Made by a program: the position numbers and the translations under genes. Shown here piece by piece: positions 591-32,336 of a stretch of DNA of 35,201 nt; the stretch's first letter is position 1, and each line of letters starts with the position of its first letter. The notes below the pieces were generated by a model. It worked only from the letters and a program-made list of their open reading frames with translations, did not search any database and was not told where the DNA came from. The DNA is from an uncultured beta proteobacterium (GTDB lineage: Bacteria > Pseudomonadota > Gammaproteobacteria > Burkholderiales > Burkholderiaceae): positions 1 through 35,201 of the forward strand of contig CAILUH010000016.1 of assembly GCA_903837335.1 (NCBI GenBank), given 5' to 3'.

Positions 591-977
591 TTAGCGTTGA
601 ATTAATTCAATTTTGTAGCCATCGGGGTCTACTACAAAGGCAATTACGGTATCACCCCCTTTAACGGGCCCAGCTTCGCGGGTAATAACTCCGCCTGCAG
701 CTTTAATTTTCTCGCAAGCAGCATATACATCTGGCACTTCGATGGCAATGTGGCCATAGGCAGTGCCCATTTCGTAGCTTTCTACCCCGTGGTTGTGGGT
801 TAGTTCAATCTCTGACTGGCCATCGGCGTTACCTTTGCCAAACCCCACAAAAGCCAATGAATAATGTTGGTCTGGGCGCTCTGTTGTGCGTAATAGGTTC
901 ATGCCCATGACTTGGGTATAAAAATTGATCGATCGGGCTAGGTTACCGACTCGTAGCATGGTGTGGAGGATCATCAT
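591..977 (-). CDS. gloA: lactoylglutathione lyase (glyoxalase I)
   Basis: This enzyme isomerises the hemithioacetal of methylglyoxal and glutathione to S-lactoylglutathione in the cytoplasm. The 128-residue product matches the E. coli-type, nickel-preferring single-domain enzyme along its length: the N-terminal [18 protein letters not shown], then [20 protein letters not shown] and [10 protein letters not shown]. The expected metal ligands are present at about H5, E58, H76 and E124. The ATG at 977 is chosen because family members begin just before ILHTML. ATG at 974 is also possible, and TTG at 986 is less likely. No ribosome-binding site precedes it. A TATATT lies 7 nt upstream, suggesting a leaderless message. 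It is divergent from selD. Confidence 0.9.
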
Positions 978-984
978 AGGAAAC

Positions 985-992
985 AATATACT
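985..992. promoter_or_regulatory. overlapping divergent -10 elements for gloA and selD
   Basis: The 8 bp AATATACT contain TATACT on the plus strand (987-992), followed by 6 nt and the selD ATG. They also contain TATATT on the minus strand (990-985), followed by 7 nt and the gloA ATG. Each is a 5/6 match to TATAAT with the key A2 and T6 present. The -35 matches are weak on both sides (TGGAGG at 964-969 for selD). No separate promoter with an untranslated leader is obvious for either gene. Confidence 0.5.
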
Positions 993-998
993 GCGTTT

Positions 999-2102
999 AT
1001 GACTACACCAATCAGATTAACCGAATATGCCCATGGCGGGGGTTGTGGCTGCAAAATTTCCCCCAGTCTATTAGCAACTATTTTGCAGGATTTGCCTTTA
1101 CCGTTGCCCAACCCTAAATTACTGGTTGGGAATGAATCGGCGGACGATGCGGCCGTTTATCTCTTGAATGATCAGCAAGCGTTAATAGCTACTACTGATT
1201 TTTTTACACCCATTGTTGATGATCCCTTTGATTTTGGGCGTATTGCGGCCACGAATGCGCTTTCAGATATTTATGCCATGGGAGGCGAGCCAATTTTGGC
1301 TTTAGCCATAGTAGGAATGCCGATTGATAAGTTACCAGCGGAAACTATCGGACGTATTCTGGCCGGGGGGCAAAGCGTTTGCGCTGCTGCGGGCATCACG
1401 ATTGCTGGTGGCCATTCAATTGATACCCCCGAACCGATATACGGCTTAGCAGTGATGGGTTTGGCACACCCGCAGTTTGTGCGTAAAAATTGCAATGCCC
1501 AAGCAGGGGACGTATTAATTTTAGCTAAACCGCTCGGGATTGGCATACTTTCTGCAGCTTTAAAAAAGGGCGTATTGAGTGCTGCTGGTTATGCTGAAAT
1601 GCTGCGCTTAACGACGCAATTAAACAGTATTGGCGCAAGCATAGCTAAGTTGCAAGGCGTTACTGCCATGACCGATGTCACAGGCTTTGGTTTAGCAGGG
1701 CATGCGCTTGAAATGGCTCGGGGTGCTAATTTAGAGTTGCAGCTAGATTTTGCAACTATTCCGTTTATTCCCTTAGCGCTTGAAAACTTAAAGCAGGGCT
1801 ATTCGACAGGTGCTAGCACGCGCAATTGGCAAAGCTATGGAGGCGAGATAGTACTTGGCAATGCAGTGGGCCAAGATCGAGGGCTTTCGGCTGCTCAATT
1901 GCAAACCCTGTTAACAGACCCACAAACTAGCGGCGGACTGCTAATTGGCTGTACGCCAGCTTCTGCGCCACAGGTACTGGCTACGTTATTACAAGCCGGG
2001 TTTGGTGATGCTTGCCAGATAGGTCAATTTTTAGGAGGGGAAGGGGAAGCGGCTGCTGAGCTCAAAAGCCCAGCGCCAGCAGCCAGACTAAAGGTTTATT
2101 GA
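999..2102 (+). CDS. selD: selenide, water dikinase (selenophosphate synthetase)
   Basis: SelD makes selenophosphate from selenide and ATP for selenocysteine or 2-selenouridine synthesis. The 367-residue product begins much like E. coli SelD. The motif HGGGCGCK carries C16 (the catalytic Cys/Sec position), C18 and K19. Further AIR-synthetase-type motifs follow: ESADDAAVY, the metal-binding region [38 protein letters not shown] and [12 protein letters not shown] at 999 is preferred over an in-frame GTG at 963 by homology and because a TATACT lies 6 nt upstream. The end overlaps the convergent parvulin gene by 7 bp. No selA, selB, selC or mnmH is in the window, so the user of its product is not visible. 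Confidence 0.95.
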
Positions 2103-2902
2103 ATCTTTGCTTTTGCTCGCAGTTTTTTCATCATTTCAGCAAACTGCGCTTTTTGCCAGGCTTCATCTGAAATAATCATTTGCTTGAGCTGGTCTTTGAC
2201 TTCATCAAAGCTAGGTACTTTCGCCTCGCGCGATTCATCGACTTTAATAATGTGCCAACCAAATTGAGTTTTAACAGGCTTGTCGGTCATCTGGCCATTT
2301 TTCAAGCCTACCATAGCCTTCGAAAATTCAGGCACTAAAGCTTTTTCACTTACCCAGCCTAAATCGCCGCCATTCGGCGCAGAGCCAGGATCTTTTGATT
2401 TGGCTTTAGCGATATCAGCAAACTTTGCTCCACCTTTAATTTGGGCAATGATTGCTTTCGCATCGGCTTCTTTTTCGACCAAAATATGTTCGACGTGATA
2501 TTCCTTGCCAGTGTATTGCGTTTTCATGGTTTCATAAGCGGACTTTAAATCGGCTTCAGTCACACCTTCTTTTTCGATGTACTCTTGAAAGACAGCGGCA
2601 ACTAAAACGCCTGTCTTCGATTGCTCTATTTGTTCGCGTACATCAGGGCGTTGCGCCACGCCAGTTTTATCGGCTTCTTGCAAAATGAGCTCACGCGTGA
2701 TGAGCATCTCTCGGCCTTGCTCGCGAATTTTAGGATCATCGCCCTGGCCTGATTTTTTAATTAAAGCGTCTAACTGAGCTGAGGGAATGGCCTTACCATT
2801 CACAATTGCGGCATTTTGTGCATAGGCTAGAAGGGGAGTAAAAGCAAGGCAAATAGCGGCAGAAATAATGCTTAGGGAGAGGTGTTTGCGAATAAATGGC
2901 AT
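2096..2902 (-). CDS. periplasmic parvulin-type peptidylprolyl isomerase
   Basis: This 268-residue protein resembles PrsA/SurA-like foldases. It has a Sec signal peptide (residues about 1-28, cleavage likely after AYA), a SurA-like helical N-domain, one parvulin domain at about 134-225, and a charged helical tail. The parvulin signature is clear: VEHILV, FADIAKAKSKDPGSA, NGGDLGWV and FGWHIIKVDE. It should catalyse cis-trans proline isomerisation and assist folding of envelope proteins in the periplasm. It is the last gene of the selO-msrB-yciB-bolA block and starts 4 nt after bolA. It gains interest because the PpiD-like protein at the other end of the window lacks this domain. Confidence 0.9.
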   Translation of the reverse strand: MPFIRKHLSLSIISAAICLAFTPLLAYAQNAAIVNGKAIPSAQLDALIKKSGQGDDPKIREQGREMLITRELILQEADKTGVAQRPDVREQIEQSKTGVLVAAVFQEYIEKEGVTEADLKSAYETMKTQYTGKEYHVEHILVEKEADAKAIIAQIKGGAKFADIAKAKSKDPGSAPNGGDLGWVSEKALVPEFSKAMVGLKNGQMTDKPVKTQFGWHIIKVDESREAKVPSFDEVKDQLKQMIISDEAWQKAQFAEMMKKLRAKAKIQ

Positions 2903-2906
2903 GATC

Positions 2907-3188
2907 TTAAATGGCTTCTTCAGGGGTTAGAGCAACAATAGCTAAGGCGTGAATTTCAGCGGGAATGTGTTTCTGCAAAGCATCATACACCAGCCGGTGG
3001 CGGGCAACCCGCGATAGGCCGGTAAATTCCGGGGCAACCAAAGTAACGCGAAAATGACCTCCGCCACTAGCTGCTCCGGCATGCCCTGCATGCATATGGC
3101 TCTCATCGTCAATGTGTAAATTGGCAATGGCAAATGCTGCCTCTAGATCGGCAGTAAATTGTTGGATGCGTAATTGGTTTGGGGTCAT
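2907..3188 (-). CDS. bolA: BolA family protein
   Basis: The product is a 93-residue BolA-fold protein. BolA proteins partner with monothiol glutaredoxins and take part in iron-sulfur cluster handling and stress responses. The family hallmarks are present: [21 protein letters not shown], a helix-loop region with the second-helix LVYDAL, and the C-terminal [13 protein letters not shown] with its conserved histidine. A His/Gly/Ala-rich insert ([14 protein letters not shown]) precedes the core, as in other betaproteobacterial members. Its ATG overlaps the yciB stop as ATGA (3185-3188), so translational coupling is likely. The length is typical. Confidence 0.9.
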
Positions 3189-3724
3189 GATTCAATATGC
3201 TTTCCAAGCCAAATACTTTGCAAAATAATAAAAACAACTAATAAACCCGTGCTGCCGAATAATTTAAAGTTGACCCAAGTATCTTCAGAAAATTGAAAGG
3301 CGACATACAGGTTTAAGACTCCCATTGCCAAGAAAAAGATAATCCAAGCGAAATTTAGCTTACCCCAGATGCTATGCGCGTGCGTTGGCTTAAGGGTCAC
3401 TTGCTTGCCCATGACAACTTGAATCCAATTTTTTTTAAAGAATTGTGCACTAATAAATAGCACTGCAGCAAATAGCCAATATAAAACGGTTGGCTTAAGC
3501 TGAATAAAAACTTTATTTTGTAGGAAGATGGTGAGACCACCAAAGACCACAATCAATATCAAGCTGGCCCACTGCATCGCATCAATTTTACGGTGGCGAT
3601 AATAGACCCAAAGAATTTGTACGATGGTTGCCACCATCGCCACAATAGTGGCGGCATAAATATCGGCAAATTTAAAAGTAATAAAAAATAAAATGACAGG
3701 AAATAAATCGAAAAGAAATTTCAT
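3185..3724 (-). CDS. yciB: inner-membrane intracellular septation protein A
   Basis: This 179-residue, very hydrophobic protein matches the YciB/IspZ family, which influences cell-envelope synthesis and division through contacts with elongasome and divisome proteins. Five or so membrane helices are visible, at about residues 5-20, 22-40, 50-69, 78-95 and 124-145, with another near 155-172. Family landmarks include [10 protein letters not shown] near the N terminus, [15 protein letters not shown] and [12 protein letters not shown]. It begins 5 nt after msrB, with no recognisable ribosome-binding site, and overlaps bolA by 4 bp, so it looks fully embedded in the operon. Confidence 0.92.
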
Positions 3725-3729
3725 AAACT

Positions 3730-4146
3730 TTATTTATTTTCTGCAATAGTTTGCGCGTTTTGGCTGGGTTCAAACTTGAGTGATGCTGAATTAATACAAT
3801 AGCGCAAGCCGGTAGTATCAGTGGGCCCATCATTAAATACGTGCCCTAAATGGGCATCGCAATTACCGCAACGCACTTCAGTGCGCGTCATACCATGGGT
3901 AGTATCTTTATGTTCGACAATAGCCTCGGCAACCATTGGAGCATCATAGCTAGGCCAACCGCAACCGGCATCGAATTTACTACTAGAAACAAATAGGGGT
4001 GTGCCACAACAAACACATTTGTATTCACCTTGATTCCAGTGATCCCAATATTTACCCGTAAAAGGTGCTTCAGTAGCGGCTTGTCGAGTAACACGATATT
4101 CAATATCGCTTAATTCTTTTTTATATTCTGCGTCAGTTTTCTTCAT
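3730..4146 (-). CDS. msrB: peptide-methionine (R)-S-oxide reductase
   Basis: MsrB reduces the R epimer of methionine sulfoxide in oxidised proteins. The 138-residue product has the zinc site as C44/C47 (CVCC) and C93/C96 (CGNC). It also has the CGWPSY motif with C62, and the catalytic cysteine C117 in RYCINSASL. The ATG at 4146 is preferred to one at 4173, which would lie before the selO stop and add residues that do not resemble the family. AGAGAG about 9-14 nt upstream is a weak ribosome-binding site. It lies 14 nt after selO and 5 nt before yciB. Pairing with selO makes a redox-repair unit. Confidence 0.95.
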
Positions 4147-4160
4147 TTCAATGGCTCTCT

Positions 4161-5663
4161 TTAGGAGGAACAACTCACCTCAATTGCATTCAATTCGGGT
4201 GGCGGGGGCTTAGCATAAGCATCATATTCTAATTGCTCAGCGTAAGGGTTACGCAAAATAGTGGCTAAGCGTGATAATTCTGAAAAATCATCTGCTTGCG
4301 CTGCCTCAATCGCTGCCTGAGCTAAATAATTACGCAGGATAAATTTGGGATTGACGAGATTCATGCGCTGTTTGCGTTCTTGATCATTGCTATGCTCTTG
4401 CTGTAAGCGAGCGCGGTAGTGATCTAGCCAGGCATCAAAACCAGCGCGGTCCAAAAAAAGGTCGCGTAAGACAGTATTTTGTTTATTACCGGGTAGCGCA
4501 CTAAGATCGCCTAAATGACGAAAAAACGTGGTGAAATCAATTTGATTGTGGTGCATTAATTGTAGTAAGGCCTCAATTAAAGGCACATCGTCGGGTTGGA
4601 TCGTAAGTAAACCGAGCTTGGCGCGAAAATGGGTTTCCCATGCGGCTTGATAAATATCGGGATAAATCGCAAGTGCACTTCGTAAGGTGGTTTGTGCAGC
4701 ATTACTTAAGTCAGCCTCAGATTGAGTAGGATTGGCTTGTTTTAACTCTTGCTCAATTAAAGGCAGCATCGCACTAGCTAAACAAGCCATATTCCAGTGC
4801 AAAATTTGCGGTTGACGCTGATAGCTGTAACGACCGCCTGCATCCGAATGATTGCAAATATGATCGATTTGAAATTGATCGAGAAACCCAAATGGGCCGT
4901 AATCCATAGTCAAGCCGAGCAAGCTAGTGTTATCGGTATTGAGCACGCCATGGCAAAAGCCCACGGCCTGCCAGTGCGCTGCAAGTTGAGCTGTACGCGC
5001 AGAAATGGCTTTAAAGAGCTCTAAATAGGGTGCGGCAGAACTCCGGCAATCGGGATAAAAGTTGTCAATCAAATCATCGGCAAGCATTTTTTGTTCAGTA
5101 TGCATTTGTAGGGAAGCGAGATGTTCGAAATGACCAACCCGTAAAAAACTCGGCGCGAGACGCGTGCAAACCGCTGCTGTTTCAAGGGTTTCACGGACCA
5201 CTGTTTTTTTTGATCCCACCACCGCTAAAGCCCGTGTAGTGGGAATGCCCAAGGCATGCATCGCCTCGCTACACAGATATTCACGAATCGAGGAGCGCAG
5301 CACGGCGCGGCCATCACCCATGCGTGAATAAGGCGTTTTACCGGCACCTTTAAGTTGGATTTCTTGACCCTGGATTTCGCCCAATAAAATAGCTCGGCCA
5401 TCGCCAAGTTGGCCAGCCCACATGCCAAATTGATGACCGCTATACGCAGTTGCGGTAGGGGTACTAAATTGTCGATCAGCTACTTCCAAGGCGTTCCCAG
5501 CCAATACTTGCAACCATGCTGGGTCGCTTGGCAGGTTAGCAGGCGTCGTTTTCAGGCCAATGAGTTTTGCCGCATCGGCAGAAAAGGTCACCCAATAGGG
5601 GTCGGGTAAGGGAGTAGGGATAACGGGTTGGCTCAGGGCTTCACCGCATAAAATAAATGTCAT
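4161..5663 (-). CDS. selO: protein adenylyltransferase SelO (YdiU)
   Basis: SelO is a pseudokinase-fold enzyme that transfers AMP from ATP to proteins during oxidative stress. The 500-residue product has [17 protein letters not shown], the nucleotide-binding [13 protein letters not shown] followed by [15 protein letters not shown], and the catalytic region HGVLNTDN with DYGPFGFLD. It ends in CSS: C498 occupies the antepenultimate position where animal SELENOO carries selenocysteine. Here the codon is TGT, so this is the cysteine form. The N terminus is somewhat short and its start has no good ribosome-binding site, so the exact start is less certain than the identity. It heads the selO-msrB-yciB-bolA-parvulin operon. 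Confidence 0.95.
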
Positions 5664-5693
5664 GCGCTTGACTCTAGCTTAACTTGAACCTTT

Positions 5694-5722
5694 TTGCTGA
5701 CCTTGCTAGAAAGCCTTATCCT
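5694..5722 (+). promoter_or_regulatory. candidate promoter of the thioesterase gene
   Basis: TTGCTG at 5694-5699 and TATCCT at 5717-5722 are separated by exactly 17 nt. This predicts transcription from about 5729 and a short leader carrying a GGAG ribosome-binding site before the ATG at 5743. Confidence 0.45.
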
Positions 5723-5742
5723 ATTGTGAATTTGGAGACCCT

Positions 5743-6228: not shown

Positions 6229-6235
6229 GTAAGGG

Positions 6236-7093
6236 CTAGACCGAGAGGTTTGATCCGGAGGCCCCAATTAAGCCGCCCGTAATGACATCATGGCCGATTG
6301 TCCCTTTAGCATCGAAGCGACGCTCAACCATTTCAAATGCGCCATCATGACGTACTCTTAATATAGTACTGGAACGGGTGCCGTAATTTGGGGTTTGAAT
6401 GAATGCAGCTGACAACGCTTTTTCCCACTCCATATTGACCCCAGTGCTAGGCAACTCTTGATCGCTAGCCTGATGTGAATCAGCTAGCAAACGCAGATAG
6501 GGATCGACATTTTTTAATTCGCCTTGATCCATCGCTAAAGCCTGCGCAAATGCGGCAATGCGATGATTGACTTTAGGCCACGGTGTATCAAGCATGGCAT
6601 TTGATAGTCCATATACGCCGGCATCTAAGGCTTGTTTAGGATAAGTTTTACGGGGTCGAATTGATTTGCCCATCATTAAGCGATTGCTCACCCAATGCAT
6701 CTCAGCATTGGCCGGATTACTGAGATCAGCCATCAATAAATTAAAGCCGTTGTACTGCTCGAATTGTTTTGCGTGTTGTTCAATAAATGCATCAGGTCGA
6801 TTTGCGTTATTGAGGAATAGCATCGGTAATTCACCGCGGGTTCTTGCATCAAGCCTTTTTTCACTTGGTGCTCTTACATTGGTCAGCGCGGCAAAGCGAC
6901 CGGTTTTGGTGAAGCCAAACCAAGTGCCAGGATTACCAAGAACATCGGCGCGATCGCGGCCAGCTAAAAGATGCGGTTTTTCTGGCCACCAAGCCATTTT
7001 TTCTGTATTGCGTTCATAAAATTCATCGCGATTAGCGGCCACCACTAAAGCATATTTAGGATGCGATTTCCAGGCGAATAAAATGAGGCACAT
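6236..7093 (-). CDS. NRDE family (TANGO2-like) protein
   Basis: The 285-residue product belongs to the NRDE/TANGO2 family, named for the motif seen here as AANRDEFYER. It begins MCLILFAW, with a cysteine at position 2, as is usual for this Ntn-hydrolase-like family. Other family features are AGRD, GTWFGFTKTGRFAALTNVR, the GVYGLSNAMLDTPWPKV block and a late GTRSSTIL. Bacterial and eukaryotic members have been linked to haem or lipid handling, but the biochemical role is unsettled. It follows ygfZ by 17 nt in the same direction. A CATATT 6 nt before its ATG could give it an independent leaderless start. Confidence 0.85.
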   Translation of the reverse strand: MCLILFAWKSHPKYALVVAANRDEFYERNTEKMAWWPEKPHLLAGRDRADVLGNPGTWFGFTKTGRFAALTNVRAPSEKRLDARTRGELPMLFLNNANRPDAFIEQHAKQFEQYNGFNLLMADLSNPANAEMHWVSNRLMMGKSIRPRKTYPKQALDAGVYGLSNAMLDTPWPKVNHRIAAFAQALAMDQGELKNVDPYLRLLADSHQASDQELPSTGVNMEWEKALSAAFIQTPNYGTRSSTILRVRHDGAFEMVERRFDAKGTIGHDVITGGLIGASGSNLSV

Positions 7094-7110
7094 AACGATA
7101 ATATGCCAGA

Positions 7111-8157
7111 TTAAATTTCTAGCAAGGGGTAGGGCAATTTTTCCCCTAAAAATAACAGTGGCCCATTCGCCGCTCCTAAATGTAAATGCTCAGTCGGTAT
7201 TGCGAGCGTGCTATTGACTAGCTCAGACTTACACTCAATCTGAAAACAGACCCGCCCCAAATTAAATGGATTGGGCGCAGAGAGAACCACCATCCCAGCA
7301 GGTTGGCTAGGGTCATTAGAATGAAAAATTTCAACCCCGGGTTGAAAGAGGGCGGTGTTCTCCACCAGGGTTTTGCTATCACTATAGGCTAAGTACAAAC
7401 GCCGTTTAATAACCCCCCGATATTGGCTACGCGCGACAATCTCTTGGCCCGGATAACAGCCTTTTTTAAAATCAATGCCATACACCGATTCAAAATTAAT
7501 CATTTGCGGAACAAATTGATCTTGGGTGGCTAGCACTATCCGCGGGATAGCACTCATGACTTCAAGAAAGTTCCACATCTCAGCTTCATTATTTACATCT
7601 TCAATCGAACTTGACTCGTCAGGAGATGAGGGAGTTGCAAATAGAAAACGGGCATACGCGTGACTGACATCTTCAATCATGACTTGAGCGGGGGGCAAAG
7701 ATAAAATCACGGCCTGCTCTGGAAATGCTAAAGCGCTTACCGAATTGAGATTCCCCCCACTATGCCGCTGCCAACTACCTTTTATTAGCCATTCATTACT
7801 CACGTCCCGCACTTGTACTTTGGCCCGCAAAACATACATCGCCAGACGTTTAGCAAAAGAAGCGGCGATATCTTTCGAAAGAAATAAAAAATAGCTTGGT
7901 TCTTCGGCTTGCTGCAAAACAAGCCAGCCACTTGCCAACAAACGGCCTTTGGGCGTGCAGTAGCCGATGAGTCGAACTTGTTGAGGCCCCGATGCCACTT
8001 GGCCGAGCGAAATTGCTGCTAGCCCTTCAACTGAGTTGGTGAGTTGATTTTGCAAAAAATGGCTTGCATCGAGCCCTTGAATATGGATTAATCCCCACTG
8101 ATCTAAGGCTACAGAGTCAGCGCTAAGGTTTGCGTTATTTATTGAGGTATTTGTCAT
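7111..8157 (-). CDS. ygfZ: tRNA-modifying / iron-sulfur repair protein YgfZ
   Basis: This 348-residue folate-binding protein resembles aminomethyltransferase (GcvT). YgfZ supports the maintenance of certain iron-sulfur enzymes such as MiaB. The diagnostic motif KKGCYPGQEIVARSQYRG is present at about residues 233-250, including the invariant cysteine. The N-terminal GcvT-like part has FLQNQLTN and YCTPKGRLLA. A Ser/Glu-rich insertion (about residues 180-195, SSPDESSSIEDVNNEAEM) precedes the domain containing the signature. It is divergent from mltG with only 20 bp between the two start codons. A TATGAT lies 9 nt upstream of its ATG, giving at most a 2-3 nt leader. Confidence 0.92.
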   Translation of the reverse strand: MTNTSINNANLSADSVALDQWGLIHIQGLDASHFLQNQLTNSVEGLAAISLGQVASGPQQVRLIGYCTPKGRLLASGWLVLQQAEEPSYFLFLSKDIAASFAKRLAMYVLRAKVQVRDVSNEWLIKGSWQRHSGGNLNSVSALAFPEQAVILSLPPAQVMIEDVSHAYARFLFATPSSPDESSSIEDVNNEAEMWNFLEVMSAIPRIVLATQDQFVPQMINFESVYGIDFKKGCYPGQEIVARSQYRGVIKRRLYLAYSDSKTLVENTALFQPGVEIFHSNDPSQPAGMVVLSAPNPFNLGRVCFQIECKSELVNSTLAIPTEHLHLGAANGPLLFLGEKLPYPLLEI

Positions 8158-8172
8158 TCTGCTTTTATCATA
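8142..8172. promoter_or_regulatory. compact divergent promoter of ygfZ and mltG with overlapping -10s
   Basis: For mltG, TTGAGG at 8142-8147, an 18-nt spacer and TATCAT at 8166-8171 are followed by 6 nt and ATG. The minus-strand -10 for ygfZ, TATGAT (8172-8167), shares 5 bp with TATCAT. Only 20 bp separate the two coding regions, so the -35 of each promoter must lie inside the other gene. Confidence 0.5.
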
Positions 8173-11910: not shown

Positions 11911-11912
11911 AT

Positions 11913-16085: not shown

Positions 16086-16873
16086 TGGGCTAAATCATTC
16101 TTTAGGTACTTCAGCCAGCCTAAGCCGGCTTCGGTATTTGTCAGAGGCCTGTACTCGCAACCGATCCAGCCAGAGTAATGCAAGCGGTCAAGGAGTGAAA
16201 ATAAAAAGGGATAATTAATTTCCCCCGTTCCTGGCTCATGTCTGCCCGGATTATCAGCGAGCTGCATATGTGCAATGCGGGGTAAATATAATTCAATTGT
16301 CTTAGCTAGCTCACCAGCCATCCGTTGCGCATGGTAAATATCAAATTGTAAGAAAGCGTTCGGGGCAGCTACCTCATCCAATATTGCAATAGCATGTTCG
16401 GTACGTGATAAATAAAAGTGCGGTATATCAAAGGTATTAATGGGCTCTATTAATAATTTAAGCCCCGCATCTTGGAATTCTTTGGCCGCATATTGCAAAT
16501 TAGCAATAAGTGTTTGGCGTAATAACTGGGTATCAATACCTTCCGGGGCAATACCCGCCAAACAATTTAATTGACGAACCCCTAAAATTTTTGCGTATCG
16601 AATTCCAGTTGCTACGCTTAAACGAAATTCGTCAATGCGATTTGGTAAACAGGCCATACCACGTTCATTAGCCTCGGTATTGCCAGGGGGTAAGTTATGT
16701 AATACCAGCTTTAAGTGATGCTGATCAAGTTGTGCCTTAATTTCTTCTGCGGCATACGCGTAAGGAAAAAGAAATTCAACTGCCTTGAACCCTGCCTGAG
16801 CAGCTCTTTCAAAGCGCGCGAGAAAAGGGACTTCATTAAACAGCAGCGAAAGATTAGCGGCAAATTGGGGCAT
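16082..16873 (-). CDS. hyi: hydroxypyruvate isomerase family protein
   Basis: The 263-residue protein is a xylose-isomerase-like TIM barrel of the Hyi family. The start MPQFAANLSLLFNEVPFLARF is characteristic, as are AGFKAVEFLFPY, NLPPGNTEANERG, LLIEPINTFDIPHFYL (metal-binding glutamate), QFDIYHAQRMAG and HEPGTGEINYPF. Hyi interconverts hydroxypyruvate and tartronate semialdehyde in glyoxylate metabolism, although related sugar isomerases look similar and the other pathway genes (gcl, glxR) are not here. The start is well supported by homology. TACAAT lies 7 nt upstream and no ribosome-binding site is present, suggesting a leaderless message. Confidence 0.85.
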   Translation of the reverse strand: MPQFAANLSLLFNEVPFLARFERAAQAGFKAVEFLFPYAYAAEEIKAQLDQHHLKLVLHNLPPGNTEANERGMACLPNRIDEFRLSVATGIRYAKILGVRQLNCLAGIAPEGIDTQLLRQTLIANLQYAAKEFQDAGLKLLIEPINTFDIPHFYLSRTEHAIAILDEVAAPNAFLQFDIYHAQRMAGELAKTIELYLPRIAHMQLADNPGRHEPGTGEINYPFLFSLLDRLHYSGWIGCEYRPLTNTEAGLGWLKYLKNDLAQ

Positions 16874-16880: not shown

Positions 16881-16886
16881 ATTGTA
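16881..16886 (-). promoter_or_regulatory. candidate -10 of a leaderless hyi transcript
   Basis: TACAAT (5/6 match to TATAAT) on the minus strand is followed by 7 nt (CTAGCAA) and the hyi ATG. The -35 region is not convincing. The rest of the 121-bp gap holds two short palindromes (16971-16978 and 16978-16987) of no obvious role. Confidence 0.45.
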
Positions 16887-17597: not shown

Positions 17598-17674
17598 TGG
17601 CGGAGCGGACGGGACTCGAACCCGCGACCCCCGGCGTGACAGGCCGATATTCTAACCAACTGAACTACCGCTCC
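17598..17674 (-). tRNA. tRNA-Asp(GTC)
   Basis: The minus strand folds as a complete 77-nt tRNA including encoded CCA: acceptor GGAGCGG paired with CCGCTCC, D arm with AGTTGGTTAGA, anticodon loop CTGTCAC (anticodon GTC), and T arm GCGGGTTCGAGTCCCGT. It is the last of three tandem tRNAs and is followed by a strong terminator. Confidence 0.97.
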
Positions 17675-17744
17675 AAATAAGGCACAACTTGTGTAACGTC
17701 ACTCTAAAACGATACTACTAACTGCTTGATACGACTAAAAAAAC

Positions 17745-17820
17745 TGGCGTCCCCAGGGGGATTCGAACCCCCGTACTCACCGTGAAAGGGTGATGTCCTA
17801 GGCCTCTAGACGATGGGGAC
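17745..17820 (-). tRNA. tRNA-Glu(TTC)
   Basis: The minus strand gives a 76-nt tRNA with encoded CCA: acceptor GTCCCCA paired with TGGGGAC, anticodon loop CTTTCAC (anticodon TTC), and T arm GGGGGTTCGAATCCCCC. It is the middle gene of the tRNA cluster and lies just downstream of gltX, whose enzyme charges it. Confidence 0.97.
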
Positions 17821-17843
17821 CTGGACTAAATTGTTCAAAATAG

Positions 17844-17919
<76 letters not shown>

Positions 17920-18064: not shown

Positions 18065-19462
18065 CTAACTCAGCACCAAATTTAGACGTTCGGTACAGGC
18101 TTCCCACCCCATCAAAGCCATTACTGCATCAATAGCTGGCGTTTGGGTGGTAGCAAATAAAGCAAAACGTAAAGGCATAGCCAAGGCCGGCATTTTTATT
18201 TGATGCTCGGCTAAGATAGCCTTAATAACTGCTGCATAGGCTTCTTTCGATGCTTCACAGCCCCCAATTGCGCGCTTTAAATCGGTTAAGGCAGGCTTGA
18301 TTGCTGCTGGTATATGAGCCGCAATCTGTTCTGCAGAATGCTGTGGAGCGGGTGCGTAAAATAATTTTGCACCATCCGCAATTTCTAATAAGGTGTTGGC
18401 TCGATCTTTTAGTAGCCCTACTACTTGCTCAAAGTTGGGGCCCTGCTGAATATCAATGCCACGCTCTTCGGCAAAAGGCCGCACTAGTTCGCTTAAGTAC
18501 TTTGTATCAGCCTGCTGAATGTAATGGTGATTTAACCAAAGTAATTTTTCAGGATTATGTTGCGCAGGAGACCTGCCAAGATGCTCTAACTCAAACCAAG
18601 CAACAAATTGCTCTTTTGTAAATATTTCCGCATCACCATGAGCCCAGCCTAATCGAGCTAAATAATTCAAAATGGCTTCTGGTAAATAGCCCGCCTTTTG
18701 GTAATCGCGCACGCTCATAGCGCCATTACGCTTACTCATTTTTTCACCCATATCATTTAAGACGGTAGGTAAATGGGCATATATTGGTGGCGTACCGCCT
18801 AAAGCACGCATAATATTAATTTGCCGCGGGGTGTTATTGACATGGTCATCGCCGCGAATAACATGGGTAATTTTCATATCCATATCATCTACCACGACAC
18901 AAAAGTTATAGGTCGGCGTACCATCGGTGCGCGCAATCACTAAATCATCAAGTTCATCATTGCCAATTTCAATTAAACCTTTTACGGCATCTTGCCAAGC
19001 CACGCTGCCATTAAGCGGGTTTTTAAAACGAATGACCGGGCTTACGCCAATAGGTGGCTCTGGCAATGCTTTGCCAGGTTCAGGGCGCCAGAGGCCGTTG
19101 TAGCGGGGTTTTTCTTTATTCGCCATTTGCGCATCACGCAAGGCATTTAAATCAAGCTCACTCATGTAGCAAGGATAGGCTAAGCCATTTTTTAACATTT
19201 CCTGAATGACCGACTGGTAGCGATCAAGCCGTTGCATTTGATAAATGGGCCCTTCATCAGGATCAAGCCCTAACCAATGCAATCCCTCAAGGATGACCTC
19301 AACTGCCTCTAGCGTGGAGCGCTCTTGATCGGTATCTTCGATGCGCAAAATAAATTGGCCTTGATGATGACGCGCAAAAGCCCAGGGGTATAAGGCACTA
19401 CGTAAGTTACCTAAATGGATGAAGCCAGTTGGGCTAGGAGCAAAACGGGTCCGGATGGTCAT
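18065..19462 (-). CDS. gltX: glutamyl-tRNA synthetase
   Basis: The 465-residue class I synthetase charges tRNA-Glu. Its HIGH-type signature is [21 protein letters not shown] at residues about 7-27, and its KMSKS-type loop is [40 protein letters not shown] residues and [11 protein letters not shown] mark the catalytic core, with the helical anticodon-binding region at the C terminus. The length is normal for a bacterial GluRS. The ATG has no ribosome-binding site, but GATAAT lies 7 nt upstream, predicting a leaderless mRNA. The gene runs toward the tRNA cluster containing tRNA-Glu and is divergent from hslO (55-bp gap). Confidence 0.97.
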
Positions 19463-19469: not shown

Positions 19470-19475
19470 ATTATC
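19470..19475 (-). promoter_or_regulatory. candidate -10 of a leaderless gltX transcript
   Basis: GATAAT (5/6 match to TATAAT) on the minus strand is followed by AAGCAAT and the gltX ATG. The best -35 is TTTAGA with an 18-nt spacer (4/6). Confidence 0.5.
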
Positions 19476-19505: not shown

Positions 19506-19511
19506 GATACT
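19506..19511 (+). promoter_or_regulatory. candidate -10 of a leaderless hslO transcript
   Basis: GATACT (4/6 match, with A2 and T6) is followed by TTAAGG and the hslO ATG. The AAGG touching the ATG is too close to act as an ordinary ribosome-binding site. Confidence 0.35.
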
Positions 19512-24750: not shown

Positions 24751-24781
24751 ATTATACCGATACCGGACTACAACACGCCAA
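24751..24781 (-). promoter_or_regulatory. promoter of the pyrG operon
   Basis: On the minus strand a perfect TATAAT (24756-24751) lies 19 nt after TTGGCG (24781-24776). Transcription from about 24744 gives a leader of roughly 18 nt. I do not see the start-site C run used for reiterative-transcription control of pyrG in Gram-positive bacteria. Confidence 0.5.
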
Positions 24782-24868
24782 AGTACGCAAATTTCCCTAT
24801 CCCCCCTTGATCTTGTAATTACTGCACCAAACTAGGGGGAAAGTCGTGCTGATCGGGCCCCAACGATT

Positions 24869-24874
24869 TACAAT
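24869..24874 (+). promoter_or_regulatory. candidate -10 of acnB
   Basis: TACAAT (5/6) on the plus strand would start transcription near 24881 and leave a leader of about 35 nt with a GAGGA ribosome-binding site at 24905-24909. The -35 is weak (GTGCTG at 17-nt spacing). The remaining part of the 190-bp pyrG-acnB gap shows only C and G runs that could pair loosely. Confidence 0.35.
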
Positions 24875-24915
24875 AGGGGTCTAAATAGAGTCAAAACTTA
24901 CCTCGAGGACTAAAG

Positions 24916-27501
24916 ATGTTAGACACCTATAACGCCCAAGTTGCTGAACGTGCCGCCCTGGGAATTCCGCCTCTACCGCTAACTAAAGATCAAACATCCC
25001 TATTAATCGACCTGATCAAAAATCCGCCTGCGGGTACCGAACAGCAGCTAGTTGATTTAATTACTTTTCGCGTGCCTGCTGGGGTGGATGAAGCTGCTAA
25101 GGTAAAAGCTGAATTTCTCGATAAAGTAGCGAAGGGAGAAGAAAAAACGCCCCTACTCTCACCTATTGAAGCTACTGAGTTGCTCGGTACGATGTTAGGT
25201 GGTTACAACATTAAGCCTTTAGTCGACTTATTAAGCAATGCTGAATGTGGCGCCACTGCAGCTGCCGTATTGAAAAAAACCCTGTTAATGTTTGATTACT
25301 TTAATGATGTGCAAGAGCTCGCTGAAAAAGGCAATGTTAACGCCATAGCCGTCATGCAAAGCTGGGCTGCCGCTGAATGGTTTACTAGTCGCCCAGCTGT
25401 ACCAGAAACAATGGTTTTAACGGTTTTTAAAGTGACCGGCGAAACGAATACTGATGATTTATCACCAGCGCCAGATGCCTGGAGTCGCCCCGATATTCCG
25501 CTGCACGCTACTGTCATGCTGAAAAACCCACGAGCTGGCATCGAGCCTGATGAAGTTGGGGTTCGCGGTCCCATGAAACAAATTGTTGAGTTGCAGAAAA
25601 AAGGCCATCAAATTGCGTATGTCGGCGATGTCGTAGGCACTGGGTCATCGCGTAAATCAGCTACTAATTCGGTACTGTGGTGGACTGGTCAAGATATTCC
25701 TTTTGTCCCCAATAAGCGCTTTGGTGGCGTCTGTTTAGGGAGCAAAATTGCCCCCATCTTTTTTAACACCATGGAAGATGCTGGCGCATTACCGATTGAA
25801 CTAGATGTTTCGCAAATGAATATGGGTGATGTTATCGAATTACGTCCCTATGAAGGTAAAGCGCTCAAAGACGGCAAAGTTATTGCTGAATTTAAATTAA
25901 AGTCGCCAGTTATCTTGGATGAGGTTCGTGCAGGCGGACGCATTCCCCTTATCGTCGGACGCGGCCTGACAGCTAAAGCGCGCGCTGCCTTAGGTTTGCC
26001 AGCATCAACCGAGTTCCGTGTGCCATTAAGCCCGCCTGATCATAAAAAAGGCTTTAGTTTGGCGCAAAAAATTGTGGGTCGAGCATGTGGCTTGCCTGAA
26101 GGTCAAGGTGTTCTGCCAGGCACTTACTGCGAGCCCCACATGACTACAGTTGGATCGCAAGACACGACTGGTCCAATGACCCGGGATGAACTAAAAGATT
26201 TAGCCTGCCTCGGGTTTTCTGCCGACTTAGTCATGCAATCGTTCTGTCATACCTCGGCCTATCCTAAGCCGGTTGATATTCGCACTCATCATGAGTTACC
26301 CGCCTTTATGACTAATCGTGGCGGCGTGGCCTTGCGCCCTGGTGATGGGGTCATTCATAGCTGGTTAAACCGCCTATTACTGCCAGATACCTGCGGTACT
26401 GGTGGCGATAGCCATACCCGCTTTCCAATTGGGATTTCATTTCCTGCCGGCTCTGGCCTGGTCGCTTTTGCTGCGGCCACTGGCGTCATGCCACTCGACA
26501 TGCCTGAGTCGGTCTTAATACGCTTTAAAGGCAAAATGCAACCCGGTATTACTTTGCGCGATTTAGTCAATGCGATTCCGCTCTATGCCATCAAACGGGG
26601 CTTGCTTACGGTGGAAAAAACGGGCAAGAAAAATATTTTTTCTGGACGCATATTAGAAATTGAAGGCCTGCCTGATTTAAAGGTAGAACAAGCCTTTGAG
26701 CTCTCAGATGCATCTGCTGAACGTTCTGCTGGCGGTTGCACGGTGCATTTAAATAAAGAGCCCATCATTGAATACATGCGCTCCAACATCACCTTAATGA
26801 AGTGGATGATTGCAAATGGATATGAAGATAAGCGTACCTTGGGCCGTCGTATCAAAGCCATGGAAGCGTGGATTGCCAATCCACAACTCTTAAAAGCCGA
26901 TGCGAACGCCGACTACGCTGAAATTATTGAAATCAATATTGATGAAATTAAAGAGCCAATTTTGGCCTGTCCTAACGATCCAGATGACGTGAAATTTTTA
27001 TCCGAGGTTGCTGGCGCGAAGATTGATGAGGTTTTTATTGGCTCATGCATGACCAATATTGGGCACTTCCGCGCAGCGGGCAAAGTACTCGAAGGCAAAA
27101 CCGATATCCCCACCCGCCTCTGGATTGCACCGCCCACCAAGATGGATGCAATGATTCTCACGGAAGAAGGCTATTACGGCATCTTGGGTCGCACGGGTGC
27201 ACGGATGGAAGCGCCAGGATGTTCTTTGTGTATGGGTAATCAAGCCCAAATGCGCAAAGGCGCTACCGCTGTCTCTACTTCAACACGCAATTTCCCTAAT
27301 CGCTTAGGCATCGATACCCAAGTCTATTTGGCCTCTGCTGAATTGGCGGCGGTTGCTGCACTCTTAGGGCGATTACCCACGCCTAAAGAATACTTGGAGC
27401 AAGTTGCTGCACTCGATAGCAAATCGTCGGAAGTGTATCGTTATATGAATTTTGACAAAATCAAAAGCTTCAGTGAAATGGCGGATACCGTTACAGTCTA
27501 A
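24916..27501 (+). CDS. acnB: aconitate hydratase B
   Basis: AcnB is the main TCA-cycle aconitase and may also hydrate 2-methyl-cis-aconitate. The 861-residue product has the B-type order: N-terminal HEAT-like domain, swivel domain ([32 protein letters not shown]), then the three catalytic domains. The 4Fe-4S ligands are C711 (GSCMTN), C769 and C772 (PGCSLCMGN). [14 protein letters not shown] and ARMEAPG are also present. The length is close to the E. coli enzyme (865). A GAGGA ribosome-binding site 6 nt before the ATG supports the start. It ends 7 bp before the convergent spermidine-synthase-like gene. Confidence 0.98.
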
Positions 27502-27508
27502 CCCGTTA

Positions 27509-28300
27509 TTAAATCTCTAATGCCAGCTCTTGTCTGGCATTAGCGTTTCTGAGGCCCTTAGCCCACGCTGAAGTAACTAAGCCGGTTTTTTCCTGAATTA
27601 ATTGCGCACGTTTTTTTATGCTTTTCCATTCAGCATAAATATGTGGTCCTTTAAAAGCAATGGCGACAGCATTGCAATCATGTGATTCGGGAAACAACAG
27701 TACTCGATCATGAAATGCCTGACAAATATTTTTCAGATTCCGTTTAAAACTGGAATGCTGTGAAAATAAATTAACTGTCATTACCCCCGGGCCACGCAAA
27801 ACGCCATAACAAGCCCGATAAAATTCGAGTGAGCTTAACACTGGCCCTTCGGCTGCTACATCATATAAGTCAACCTGCAGGGCATCGTATTGCTCGGCAT
27901 TGGCACTGGCGAGCACGAATTCTAAGGCATCAATTTGCTTTACTTGTAAACGTCGATCATCATCTGGCAAATAAAACATGGTGCGCGCAGCAATAATCAC
28001 GGCAGGGTTTAATTCAATAGCAGTGGTTTTGACGGCTGGACAATACCGATACTGAAACTTAGCTAAAGCGCCAGTACCCAAACCTAATTGAGCTACTTGC
28101 AAGCCTGGGCGACTTTCTAAAAAAAGCAACCAAGCCATCATTTGCTGGTTGTAATCTAAATAAATTTCATCAGGATCATTTAAACGCATGGCCCCCTGAA
28201 TAAGATCGCTACCAAAATGTAAATAGCGAATACCGCCCGACTCAGAAAAAGTCACTGCTTCGGTTGCTAAATTAGGTAACTCACCTGCGGCCATTTGCAT
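27509..28300 (-). CDS. spermidine-synthase-like methyltransferase-fold protein
   Basis: The 263-residue protein has a Rossmann fold like spermidine synthase: YLHFGSDLIQGAMRL near the N terminus, motif I VAQLGLGTGALAKF (G73-x-G75-x-G77), the acidic strand end AIELNPAVI, DALEF and DALQVDLYD. Members of this SpeE-like group often lack proof of polyamine synthesis, and the gatekeeper residues are not clearly those of true SpeE, so I leave it unnamed. ATG at 28300 lies 10 nt after the purL stop; ATG at 28294 is equally possible, and upstream starts would lie inside purL. It is probably co-transcribed with purL. Confidence 0.75.
   Translation of the reverse strand: MQMAAGELPNLATEAVTFSESGGIRYLHFGSDLIQGAMRLNDPDEIYLDYNQQMMAWLLFLESRPGLQVAQLGLGTGALAKFQYRYCPAVKTTAIELNPAVIIAARTMFYLPDDDRRLQVKQIDALEFVLASANAEQYDALQVDLYDVAAEGPVLSSLEFYRACYGVLRGPGVMTVNLFSQHSSFKRNLKNICQAFHDRVLLFPESHDCNAVAIAFKGPHIYAEWKSIKKRAQLIQEKTGLVTSAWAKGLRNANARQELALEI
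27517..27543. terminator. hairpin between convergent acnB and the SpeE-like gene
   Basis: CTAATGCCAG and CTGGCATTAG form a perfect 10-bp stem with a 7-nt loop, lying in the last codons of the minus-strand gene and 15 nt after the acnB stop. T runs are short on both sides, so a bidirectional terminator is likely but not textbook. Confidence 0.55.
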
Positions 28301-28310
28301 AAACCCGAGA

Positions 28311-31300
28311 CTAATTAACCCAATAACGGGCATTGCGAAATAAACGCATCCACGGACTAGCGCCATCGGCGATGGCATTCCATTCTGGCGGATGCCAACT
28401 CAGCTGAGCGGTACGAAAAACCCGTTCTGGGTGCGGCATCATAATGGTGAAACGACCATCGGGAGTAGTTACGCCAGTTAATCCATCTGCTGAACCATTC
28501 GGATTTAGCGGATACGTTTCAGTCGCTTCACCACGGTGATTTATAAACCGTAAAGTGCCTAAATGGGCTGCGCGCAATTGCTCGATATTGCCTTGCCGGC
28601 TAAAGTTTGCATAGCCTTCGCCATGTGAAACTGCAATGGGAAGATGGCTACCGGTCATACCTTGAGTAAAGATAGAGGGCGATGGTAAGACTTCGACCAT
28701 AGCTAAGCGGGCTTCAAATTGTTCTGATAGATTGCGCGTAAATTGTGGCCACGATGCAGCACCAGGAATAATAGGTGCTAAATTACTCATCATTTGGCAA
28801 CCATTACAAACACCTAAAGCAAAACTATTTGCTTTAGCAAAAAATTGTGCAAACTGATCACGCAATTGAGAATTAAACAGAATGGTTTTAGCCCATCCTC
28901 CGCCTGCCCCCAAAACATCGCCATAACTAAAGCCGCCACAGGCCACTAAACCCTGAAAGCAGCTTAACTGCGCCCTTCCGGCAATTAAATCCGACATATG
29001 CACGTCAAAGGTATCAAAACCAGCCCAATGGATAGCGTACGCCATTTCAACATGGGAGTTCACGCCCTGTTCACGCAAAATTGCTACTGGCGGACGCACG
29101 CCCTTCTGGATGAAAGGTGCAGCAATATCTTGCTGGGCATCAAAGGTAACTATGGGGGTCATTCCTGGATCACTGAGATCATCCAGTAAGTTGAACTCAC
29201 TATCCGCGCAAGCAGGATTATCACGTCCACGCGCAATCTGCCAACTGGTGTTTTGCCAGAGTTTTTGTAACGATTCTCGGCTGGCGCTATAAATCTTTTT
29301 TGCATCCCGCCAAATTTCAATCATGCCAGTAGTATTGGGTTTGCCAATCACGTGGCTACAAGCACTTAAATTGAGGCGTCGTAAGATCGCAAAAACAGCA
29401 TCACGTTGACTGCGCCTAATTTGAATGACAACCCCTAACTCTTCATTGAATAAAGCCCGCATAGTGAGGTCGTGGCGCTTACCTGAAATTTGTTGCGCCC
29501 AATTTTTAGCATCACCGTAGTCGGCTTCTTGTTGGGGGTCTACCGCTAGCATATCCACATTAAGCGCAATGCCACAATGCGTAGCAAAGGCCATTTCAGC
29601 TACGCAAGCAAATAAGCCGCCATCAGAGCGATCATGATAGGCTAATATCATCTGGTGTTGCCGTAACTCAATCACTGCAGCAGCTAGGGCCTTGAGGTCA
29701 TCCGCTGAATCTACATCAGGTGTAGAAGATCCCGTTTGATTTAATACTTGCGCCAAAATACTACTCGCCAAGCGATTTTTACCGCGACCTAAATCGATTA
29801 GAACAAGCTCGGTATCTTGCAAAGAATGCGTCATATCATCGGCTTGTAGAACAGGTGTTAAGGTAGCGCGTACATCCTCTACGGGTGCAAAAGCCGAAAT
29901 AATTAATGAGACGGGGGCAATCACTTCCTTTAGCTCACCGGCAGCTTGCCAAGTGGTAGCCATGGATAGAGAGTCTTTTCCTACCGGAATCGAAATACCC
30001 AAAGCAGGACATAAATCCATACCCAATGTTTTAACCGCTGCAAATAATTTGGCATCTTCACCAGCGACACCGCAAGCCGCCATCCAGTTAGCCGATAACT
30101 TCACATCTGCTAGCGCACGAATATCGGCTGCAAAAAGATTGGTTAAGGCTTCACCAACTGCCATGCGAGCTGCAGCGGGCGCATCTATTACAGCTAGCGG
30201 AGTACGCTCCCCCATCGCCATAGCTTCACCCCGATACGCTTTAAAATCCATCAGGGTAACCGCACAATCAGCTACCGGTACCTGCCATGGACCGACCAAT
30301 TGATCGCGCGCATTTAAACCGCCTACAGTACGATCACCAATCGTAATTAAAAAACCTTTACTGGCTACCGTAGGTTGTTGCAAAACCCACGCAATACAAG
30401 TCGCTAAATCGGTATCGTCTAGATTGAGTTCAGCAAAGGAAGTTTTAGTACTCTCAACCGTACGATGCATACGCGGTGGCTTACCCAGCAAAACGTCCAT
30501 CGGCATATCAATAGGCCAAGCAGCATCAGCAGCTGGATTTTGCCGCTCATCCTGTAAACGTAATTGACGCTCTAGGGTTGCACTACCAACTACAGCCATT
30601 GGACATCTTTCCCGCGCGCATATCTGTTGTAATAGTGCGAGACTTGCACTGTCAATCGCTAAGACGTAACGTTCTTGCGCTTCATTGCACCAAATTTCTG
30701 CGGGGCTCATGCCGCTTTCTTCTAGTGGAATATGGCGAAGCTGAAAATCGGCGCCTAAGCCTGCACCATCGGCTAGCTCGGGAAACGCATTCGATAAGCC
30801 GCCAGCCCCTACATCATGAATAGAAATAATTGGATTTTTTTCGCCCAAATGACAACAGGCATTAATAACTTCTTGCACGCGCCGTTCAATTTCAGGATTA
30901 CCTCGTTGTACCGAATTAAAATCTAAATCGGCAGTGTTCGTGCCGGTGCTAACCGAGCTTCCTGTAGCGCCCCCCATACCAATGCGCATTCCAGGACCGC
31001 CCAATTGAATTAATAAATGCCCTGCTTGAATGGGTTTTTTTGCCGTATGGTTAGCCGCAATATTGCCAATGCCTCCAGCAATCATGATGGGCTTGTGATA
31101 ACCCCGGCGCACGCCATCGATCGTTTGCTCATAAACCCGAAAGTAGCCACCTAAATTGGCTCGCCCAAATTCATTATTAAAGGCTGCGCCACCAAGGGGG
31201 CCTTCGATCATAATTTGCAAAGGGGAAGCAATGCGTTCAGGTTTGCCATAAGGCGCTTTCTCCCAAGGCAAATCGGTATCAGGTAGGTGTAAATGCGAGA

Positions 31301-32324
31301 CTGAAAATCCCGTTAAGCCAGCTTTTGGCCGCCCACCAATGCCAGTAGCCCCTTCGTCGCGGATTTCTCCGCCAGCCCCAGTTGAAGCCCCAGGAAAAGG
31401 TGCAATACCAGTCGGGTGATTATGCGTCTCTACCTTCATTAAGGTATGCATGACGCAATCTGCTTTTTGATATTGATACGCACTACCTTGTGGAGTCCAA
31501 GTTTCGACTTCACAGCCAGCCATTACTGCCGAGTTATCAGAGTAAGCTACGATCGTGCCCTGCGGCTGTAAACGATGCGTATTGCGAATCATCGCAAAGA
31601 GAGATTGATCTTGTTCGATGCCATCGATAGTCCAAGTCGCATTAAAAATTTTATGTCGGCAATGCTCACTATTGGCTTGCGCGAACATCATCAGCTCTAC
31701 ATCGCTTGGGTCGCGCTTTAAGCGCTGAAAGTTGGTCGCTAAATAGTTAATTTCATCCGTCGATAAGGCTAGGCCTAAATCGGTATTCGCTTGTTGTAAA
31801 GCATCCTCACCATGGGCTAAGACAGCAATCCGCTGCAAGGGCGTATCAGCTAAAGATTGATATAACCCTTCTGCTTGATCAAGCTCAACTATTACGGCTT
31901 CAGTCATGCGATCATGAATGGCACTCAAAATGAAGTCCTGCTCCTTGGCAGATAACGCTTTAGCTGAGCGCCAGGTAAAGCGAATGCCGCGTTCAATCCT
32001 GAAGATTTGAAGACCGCATTGACGGGCAATTTCGGTAGCCTTACTTGCCCATGGCGATACTGTGCCAAACCGAGGAATAGCGATAGCTTGACCAACGTTC
32101 TTTGGCGATTTTTCTTTAGTCTTATATGGATCACCATAGGCTAACAAAGCCTCTAATACCTTGGTTTGCTCTTCATCTAAAGCGGTTTTAGACCAAACAA
32201 AATGCAGGTACTGCCCTTGCATCGAATCAAGCATGACCCCTTGCTTGGCAAGATCAGCTAAAAGCCGTTGCTGGCGAAAGGAAGAGAGGGCGTCAGCCCC
32301 TGGCAAACAACGAAAAAAAGACAT
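28311..32324 (-). CDS. purL: phosphoribosylformylglycinamidine synthase
   Basis: PurL converts FGAR to FGAM in purine synthesis using glutamine and ATP. The 1337-residue product is the long single-chain proteobacterial form. It has an N-terminal PurS-like part, a linker with FAQANSEHCRHKIFNATW, two AIR-synthetase-like halves (KVETHNHPTGIAPFPGA, GAGGEIRDEG, IHDVGAGGLSNAFPEL), and a C-terminal amidotransferase with GFSYGDVLGAGGGWA, the nucleophile in GVCNGCQM and MPHPERVFR. The ATG at 32324 begins MSFFRCLPG as in the family; an upstream GTG-like extension would lie in the ABC gene. TATAAT is 6 nt upstream, with AAGG touching the ATG. Confidence 0.97.
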   Translation of the reverse strand: MSFFRCLPGADALSSFRQQRLLADLAKQGVMLDSMQGQYLHFVWSKTALDEEQTKVLEALLAYGDPYKTKEKSPKNVGQAIAIPRFGTVSPWASKATEIARQCGLQIFRIERGIRFTWRSAKALSAKEQDFILSAIHDRMTEAVIVELDQAEGLYQSLADTPLQRIAVLAHGEDALQQANTDLGLALSTDEINYLATNFQRLKRDPSDVELMMFAQANSEHCRHKIFNATWTIDGIEQDQSLFAMIRNTHRLQPQGTIVAYSDNSAVMAGCEVETWTPQGSAYQYQKADCVMHTLMKVETHNHPTGIAPFPGASTGAGGEIRDEGATGIGGRPKAGLTGFSVSHLHLPDTDLPWEKAPYGKPERIASPLQIMIEGPLGGAAFNNEFGRANLGGYFRVYEQTIDGVRRGYHKPIMIAGGIGNIAANHTAKKPIQAGHLLIQLGGPGMRIGMGGATGSSVSTGTNTADLDFNSVQRGNPEIERRVQEVINACCHLGEKNPIISIHDVGAGGLSNAFPELADGAGLGADFQLRHIPLEESGMSPAEIWCNEAQERYVLAIDSASLALLQQICARERCPMAVVGSATLERQLRLQDERQNPAADAAWPIDMPMDVLLGKPPRMHRTVESTKTSFAELNLDDTDLATCIAWVLQQPTVASKGFLITIGDRTVGGLNARDQLVGPWQVPVADCAVTLMDFKAYRGEAMAMGERTPLAVIDAPAAARMAVGEALTNLFAADIRALADVKLSANWMAACGVAGEDAKLFAAVKTLGMDLCPALGISIPVGKDSLSMATTWQAAGELKEVIAPVSLIISAFAPVEDVRATLTPVLQADDMTHSLQDTELVLIDLGRGKNRLASSILAQVLNQTGSSTPDVDSADDLKALAAAVIELRQHQMILAYHDRSDGGLFACVAEMAFATHCGIALNVDMLAVDPQQEADYGDAKNWAQQISGKRHDLTMRALFNEELGVVIQIRRSQRDAVFAILRRLNLSACSHVIGKPNTTGMIEIWRDAKKIYSASRESLQKLWQNTSWQIARGRDNPACADSEFNLLDDLSDPGMTPIVTFDAQQDIAAPFIQKGVRPPVAILREQGVNSHVEMAYAIHWAGFDTFDVHMSDLIAGRAQLSCFQGLVACGGFSYGDVLGAGGGWAKTILFNSQLRDQFAQFFAKANSFALGVCNGCQMMSNLAPIIPGAASWPQFTRNLSEQFEARLAMVEVLPSPSIFTQGMTGSHLPIAVSHGEGYANFSRQGNIEQLRAAHLGTLRFINHRGEATETYPLNPNGSADGLTGVTTPDGRFTIMMPHPERVFRTAQLSWHPPEWNAIADGASPWMRLFRNARYWVN

Positions 32325-32330
32325 CCTTAG

Positions 32331-32336
32331 ATTATA
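32331..32336 (-). promoter_or_regulatory. perfect -10 of a leaderless purL transcript
   Basis: TATAAT on the minus strand is followed by CTAAGG and the purL ATG, so transcription would begin at or next to the A of the start codon. It sits in the 22-bp gap after the ABC ATPase gene. The -35 is poor. No PurR-like operator is obvious. Confidence 0.5.

Follow-up and report, generated by a model that had tools for sequence, protein, structure and literature searches.

A predicted class of leaderless genes, with -10 boxes 6 or 7 nt before the ATG, in a betaproteobacterium, probably a Polynucleobacter

Several genes in a 35,201-nucleotide stretch of DNA from an uncultured beta proteobacterium (the window, which is contig C16 of a 2.0 Mb source genome in 295 contigs, G000) have a -10-like hexamer ending a few nucleotides before the start codon, and the question is whether such genes are transcribed from the ATG itself. 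The first-pass annotation listed nine such boxes, and all nine are present in the sequence with the spacings that it gave:

985..990, minus strand: gloA -10 box TATATT, 7 nt before the ATG (A at 977)
987..992, plus strand: selD -10 box TATACT, 6 nt before the ATG (999)
7100..7105, minus strand: weak box CATATT of an NRDE/TANGO2-family gene, 6 nt before the ATG (A at 7093)
8166..8171, plus strand: mltG -10 box TATCAT, 6 nt before the ATG (8178)
8167..8172, minus strand: ygfZ -10 box TATGAT, 9 nt before the ATG (A at 8157)
16881..16886, minus strand: hyi TACAAT, 7 nt before the ATG (A at 16873); probably a chance match or of very recent origin
19470..19475, minus strand: gltX -10 box GATAAT, 7 nt before the ATG (A at 19462)
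19506..19511, plus strand: hslO -10 box GATACT (a 4/6 match), 6 nt before the ATG (19518)
32331..32336, minus strand: purL -10 box TATAAT, 6 nt before the ATG (A at 32324)

The Shine-Dalgarno-like (SD-like) sequence claimed before acnB, eno, tesA, HNH and paaI is also visible, in tesA at a TTG start. Ten proteins of the window were scanned with Pfam, which supports a glyoxalase (gloA), an AIR-synthase fold (SelD), YceG (MltG), a xylose-isomerase-like barrel (Hyi), glutamyl-tRNA synthetase, Hsp33 (HslO), TANGO2 (NRDE), 4HBT and HNH; the ygfZ product in this set has no Pfam match. Three consecutive tRNA genes lie on the minus strand at 17601-17919, just downstream of gltX. The window has a G+C content of 46% and the larger G000 sample 44%. 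The named loci nearest to its MltG come from two metagenome-assembled genomes of uncultured beta proteobacteria (96 and 79%), followed mostly by Polynucleobacter (50-64%). The gltX match has identical coordinates in the genome of Polynucleobacter sp. 30F-ANTBAC (L039, G004) and in G015, a genome of the window's genus, and from this we infer that the genus of the window is Polynucleobacter.

The boxes at 6-7 nt are very probably leaderless promoters. A sigma70-type -10 hexamer would end 6 or 7 nt before the AUG, RNA polymerase would initiate at its A to give an mRNA without a 5' UTR, and ribosomes would start on the 5'-terminal AUG without Shine-Dalgarno pairing. A hexamer at -12 to -7 with a spacing of 6 sets +1 on the A of the ATG, and leaderless translation proceeds through the 70S ribosome, or through the 30S subunit loaded with fMet-tRNA and IF2. 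The box, the peak in its spacing, the restriction of this peak to in-frame ATG codons and its conservation are established observations; the transcription start site and the use of the known leaderless route in translation are predicted, and an additional upstream promoter may supply a leadered mRNA at any of these genes.

The spacing was counted in G000, in 800 kb of another species of the same genus (G026), and in control samples from E. coli, Burkholderia and two other Burkholderiales (G038 and G049). Genes were called with a simple coding model, the threshold of which was lowered after stricter settings gave 62-69% and then 76-82% coding; the first in-frame ATG was taken mechanically as the start, so that the choice of start is blind to upstream motifs. 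The E. coli starts come from the same gene caller, and the E. coli annotation was left out of the counts. A box is a 5/6 match with A2 and T6, tallied for each spacing between 0 and 40, and the expected count is the mean over spacings other than 5-8. Counting was limited to genes that have both an upstream neighbour and an ATG inside the allowed zone, which reduced called to counted genes from 261 to 208 (G000), 683 to 592 (G026), 158 to 145 (E. coli), 260 to 133 (Burkholderia), 152 to 130 (G038) and 135 to 113 (G049).

Within the window, five of 28 counted starts are boxed at spacing 6-7 (gloA, selD, mltG, hyi and purL), whereas the other spacings average 0.22 each; this count lacks gltX because of its overlap with the called hslO, which itself entered the count at an earlier ATG (19455). 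The sharp peak at 6-7 nt, which had been set as the genome-wide test, is found outside the window too. G026 has 32 boxes at spacing 6 and 7 at spacing 7 among its 592 starts (39 against 4.7 expected; mean 2.35 per spacing), and G000 has 12 and 4 among 208 (16 against 2.7 expected; mean 1.35); the largest count at any other single spacing is 6 in G000 and 8 in G026. Once the window is removed, G000 retains 9 boxes at 6 and 2 at 7 among 180 starts, with a mean of 1.14 elsewhere (Poisson P 2.6e-5). In 100 dinucleotide shuffles of each sample the shuffled mean is 2.25 and the maximum 8 for G000 (observed 16/208), and 6.53 and 13 for G026 (observed 39/592); the window counts, the starts outside it and the shuffles uphold the judgement that the recurrence is far above chance. 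None of the controls has a clear peak at 6-7: E. coli has 1/145 (0 at 6 and 1 at 7; 1.1 expected), G038 2/130 (2 and 0; 1.1 expected), G049 1/113 (0 and 1; 1.8 expected) and Burkholderia 1/133 (0 and 1; 0.3 expected), the last a weak control since strict boxes are scarce in its DNA of 67% G+C.

With the strict 5/6 box the excess over background is 5.8% of all counted starts for G026 and 6.4% for G000, and with a 4/6 box it is 6.6% and 10.2%; about 6% of starts (strict box, background removed) are thus probably leaderless in the two sampled genomes, beside an SD class. By gene arrangement, G026 has 20/154 boxed starts in divergent genes (2.1 expected), 4/140 in distant same-strand genes (1.35 expected), 6/62 in the middle class (0.43 expected) and 9/236 in close-spaced same-strand genes (0.81 expected). 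The peak had been predicted to be absent at genes internal to operons, and this does not hold for the close-spaced same-strand class, of which purL itself is a member and in which G000 also has 4/88 against 1.0 expected. Boxed close-spaced genes include accA and a DAHP synthase gene (L017, L143, L153, L159, L161, L197, L218); here the box lies close to the end of the preceding gene or within it, and such boxes are likely to be promoters inside gene strings. A scan of 10 of the 39 boxed G026 genes against NCBIfam, with some matches below the curated cut-off, gave AccA, YchF, GpmA, GlnS, DAHP synthase, a nucleoside bisphosphate phosphatase, a polyprenyl diphosphate synthase-like protein, a UbiH-family hydroxylase, a YicC endoribonuclease and a rhodanese-like protein.

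The alternative that survives best is that transcription starts a few nucleotides before the AUG, leaving a 5' UTR of 1-5 nt, so that the mRNAs are very short-leadered and not strictly leaderless. The box of ygfZ favours it, as it stands at 9 nt in 11/17 loci and would give a leader of about 3 nt; the peak at 6 and 7 instead places canonical initiation on or next to the A of the ATG, and G026 shows no more than background at spacings 8 and 9 (2 and 1 of 592), which makes this alternative improbable for the class.

The spacing peak is essentially confined to in-frame ATG. In G026, counts for in-frame ATG are 35 and 8 at spacings 6 and 7 against a mean of 3.27 per spacing, and for out-of-frame ATG 1 and 1 against 1.73, with no peak; the CTG and ATH controls give no peak. 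GTG is slightly in excess (in G026, 4 against 0.78 at spacing 6; in G000, 2 against 0.46 at spacing 7), and TTG has 2 at spacing 6 against 0.70 in G000, with 0 and 1 against 1.59 in G026. That the start codons are misassigned, the true starts lying downstream behind ordinary leaders, is suggested by the two tandem ATGs of gloA; it is very unlikely for the class, as the first in-frame ATG was picked mechanically, the peak is absent for out-of-frame ATG, and gltX, purL and mltG align at the boxed ATG in the loci examined, with few exceptions. Returning to leaderless promoters, an SD core precedes 0/16 (G000) and 2/39 (G026) boxed starts against 48/192 and 147/553 of the others, a depletion that is partly trivial because the box fills 6 of the 14 bases scanned. 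Weak -35-like hexamers 16-18 bp away are found at 12/55 boxed starts against 2 to 4/55 in three control bands. A 16S tail with CCTCC is present in 3/3 relatives, and SD-led starts should therefore work beside leaderless ones; this tail was not found in G000, the assembly of which may lack it.

A count free of any gene caller compared TANAAT-N6-ATG with TANAAT-N9-ATG in 61 whole genomes, N9 being a single control spacing that keeps the codon phase. N6 exceeds N9 in 37/37 same-genus genomes, with totals of 3067 against 1213 and a mean N6 excess of 50 per genome (P < 0.001 in 34 of 37). Among other genera of the order N6 is higher in 20/24 genomes (981 against 669; P < 0.001 in 5), so the pattern extends past the genus, patchily; in the remaining four of these 24 (G040, G042, G064 and G065) N6 is not above N9.

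Conservation was followed gene by gene, with loci of identical upstream sequence or without an ATG excluded; the loci kept, matched and searched were 31, 34 and 35 for gltX, 23, 24 and 35 for hslO, 29, 30 and 30 for purL, 17, 17 and 18 for mltG, 17, 18 and 18 for ygfZ, 29, 30 and 30 for selD, 26, 29 and 30 for hyi, and 18, 18 and 18 for NRDE. A 5/6 box stands at spacing 6 in 29/29 purL loci, and the mltG box keeps spacing 6 in 17/17 distinct loci. The gltX set, which takes in five loci from other genera (L107-L111), has a 5/6 box at 6-7 in 26/31, with one same-genus miss by eye (L134); its seven spacer letters differ and its spacer length is constant. For hslO the 4/6 box is at 6-7 in 23/23 loci and the 5/6 box in 2/23. 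The selD boxes differ between species, a 5/6 box at 6-7 being found in 6/29 genus loci and that of the window being kept in its nearest relative, L247; the selD promoter seems to have changed more than once. By eye, GATACT or GATACC also stands about 8 nt before a possible ATG upstream of selD in L254, L267, L269, L270, L271, L272 and L274. The gloA gene was matched in four loci, of which the window and L247 keep the box; it was not seen in the other two, L037 and L039. Across 70 reciprocal orthologue pairs of G000 and G026 the box is in both members of 7, in G000 only in 3, in G026 only in 2 and in neither in 58, so that 7/10 boxed and 2/60 unboxed G000 genes have a boxed G026 orthologue (Fisher P 3e-6).

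Both the predicted peak and the conservation thus support the proposal that sigma70-type leaderless genes exist alongside an SD class, with a shorter roster than was first given: purL, mltG, gltX and hslO are strong members, gloA and selD are local, and hyi and NRDE are unsupported. The box of ygfZ, which had been called near, is present with its spacing mostly at 9, and its leader is probably about 3 nt. Chance matches in AT-rich upstream DNA may account for hyi and NRDE, and as an explanation of the class as a whole are refuted by the shuffles, the starts outside the window, the genome counts of N6 against N9 and the conservation, leaving them scarcely credible in that role. The hyi gene is rejected as a conserved leaderless gene, its box occurring in 1/26 loci, the window's own copy, and an AAGG-type SD being seen by eye upstream of hyi in several relatives; NRDE is rejected with a 5/6 box at 6-7 in 0/18 loci and a 4/6 box in 6/18. 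In purL the spacer (32325-32330 in the window) is also conserved by eye, as CTAGGG in 12/30 loci and in closely similar forms in most of the rest; it makes a G-rich discriminator that abuts the predicted start site, which could point to stringent control.

Gene starts of this kind are already known in related bacteria. Leaderless (TA-led) genes were reported in 9/71 betaproteobacterial genomes at a mean of 6.8% and a range of 2.8-10.6% (Zheng 2011, PMC3160421), with TANNNT some 12 bp upstream of the start codon as in the genes described here; conservation of the spacing across a genus is documented here and not in that survey as far as its account was available, and Polynucleobacter is not named in its main text. 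In Cupriavidus metallidurans CH34 leaderless transcripts make up 4.67% of primary start sites mapped by experiment (PMC7563307), and in Burkholderia cenocepacia J2315 72 genes start exactly at the start codon and 42 more within 10 nt, 24 of them tRNAs (PMC4603805); the latter likewise has a TA-rich box directly upstream of mapped starts in a related betaproteobacterium. The leaderless sets of both are described as enriched for transcription genes (in Cupriavidus also replication and repair), whereas the starts here are predictions and most of the named examples encode housekeeping enzymes. That two start classes coexist is supported here, and the suggestion that this would be notable is tempered by these three reports (PMC3160421, PMC4603805, PMC7563307). 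GeneMarkS-2 has a leaderless class, as cited in PMC9581028, where the description of it makes no mention of the genus Polynucleobacter. No leaderless genes or mapped 5' ends in Polynucleobacter were found in searches of the open-licence literature. A common freshwater genus would join the bacteria in which leaderless and SD-led starts coexist, and the conserved core genes purL, gltX and accA would fall in the leaderless class; such a genus would therefore be a culturable system for asking why genes stay leaderless, and gene callers should expect a -10 box instead of an SD before such starts.

The freshest lead is the symmetric -10 common to ygfZ and mltG, the starts of which are 21 bp apart; their boxes overlap in TATCATA, and TATCATA-N5-ATG is kept in 18/18 loci. 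The starts of gloA and selD are 22 bp apart, and their boxes overlap on opposite strands in AATATACT, which is seen in the window and L247 only. Both pairs thus show a feature of bidirectional promoters, namely -10 boxes that overlap on opposite strands in the gap between diverging genes. Starts 21-24 bp apart occur in 7/104 divergent pairs of G000 and G026 against 1/69 in the four controls; by eye four of the seven have overlapping boxes, and L005, L012 and L158 do not clearly have them. In 5/104 divergent pairs both genes have a 5/6 box at 6-7, against about 1.9 pairs under independence, as computed from 29/216 boxed divergent starts, which hints weakly at coupling of the two sides; one of these five pairs spans 170 bp with, by eye, an apparent tRNA gene between. 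A further paired case is gpmA with a rhodanese-like gene (L220).

Bidirectional promoters have overlapping -10 elements on both strands and start sites 7-25 bp apart, usually 18 bp (PMC10268837), and by analogy with that work transcription would proceed both ways at the overlapping boxes; in contrast to the usual 18 bp, the distance here is 21-23 bp between start codons, which are also the predicted start sites. For some divergent housekeeping genes in Polynucleobacter the 20-bp intergenic region may thus be a complete two-way promoter, with one symmetric -10 and start codons within about 3 nt of both start sites, a tentative model to which we give slightly less than an even chance; the ygfZ ATG lies farther than 9 nt from the shared box in some loci. 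The csoR-cueA divergon of Bradyrhizobium also has overlapping -10 elements, and its csoR mRNA is leaderless by 5' RACE (PMC5057107); unlike the pairs here, it has a leader of 42 nt on the opposite side and promoters overlapped by a repressor box. Searches of the open-licence literature yielded no clear earlier account of the paired leaderless and bidirectional arrangement, although its absence there is unproven. Beyond Polynucleobacter, 11/39 ATG-bearing ygfZ loci (L056, L057, L063, L072, L073, L074, L087, L088, L092, L093 and L095) have GATAAT or CATAAT upstream of an in-frame ATG at a spacing of 6 or 7 nt, and leaderless ygfZ may therefore be old in Burkholderiales.
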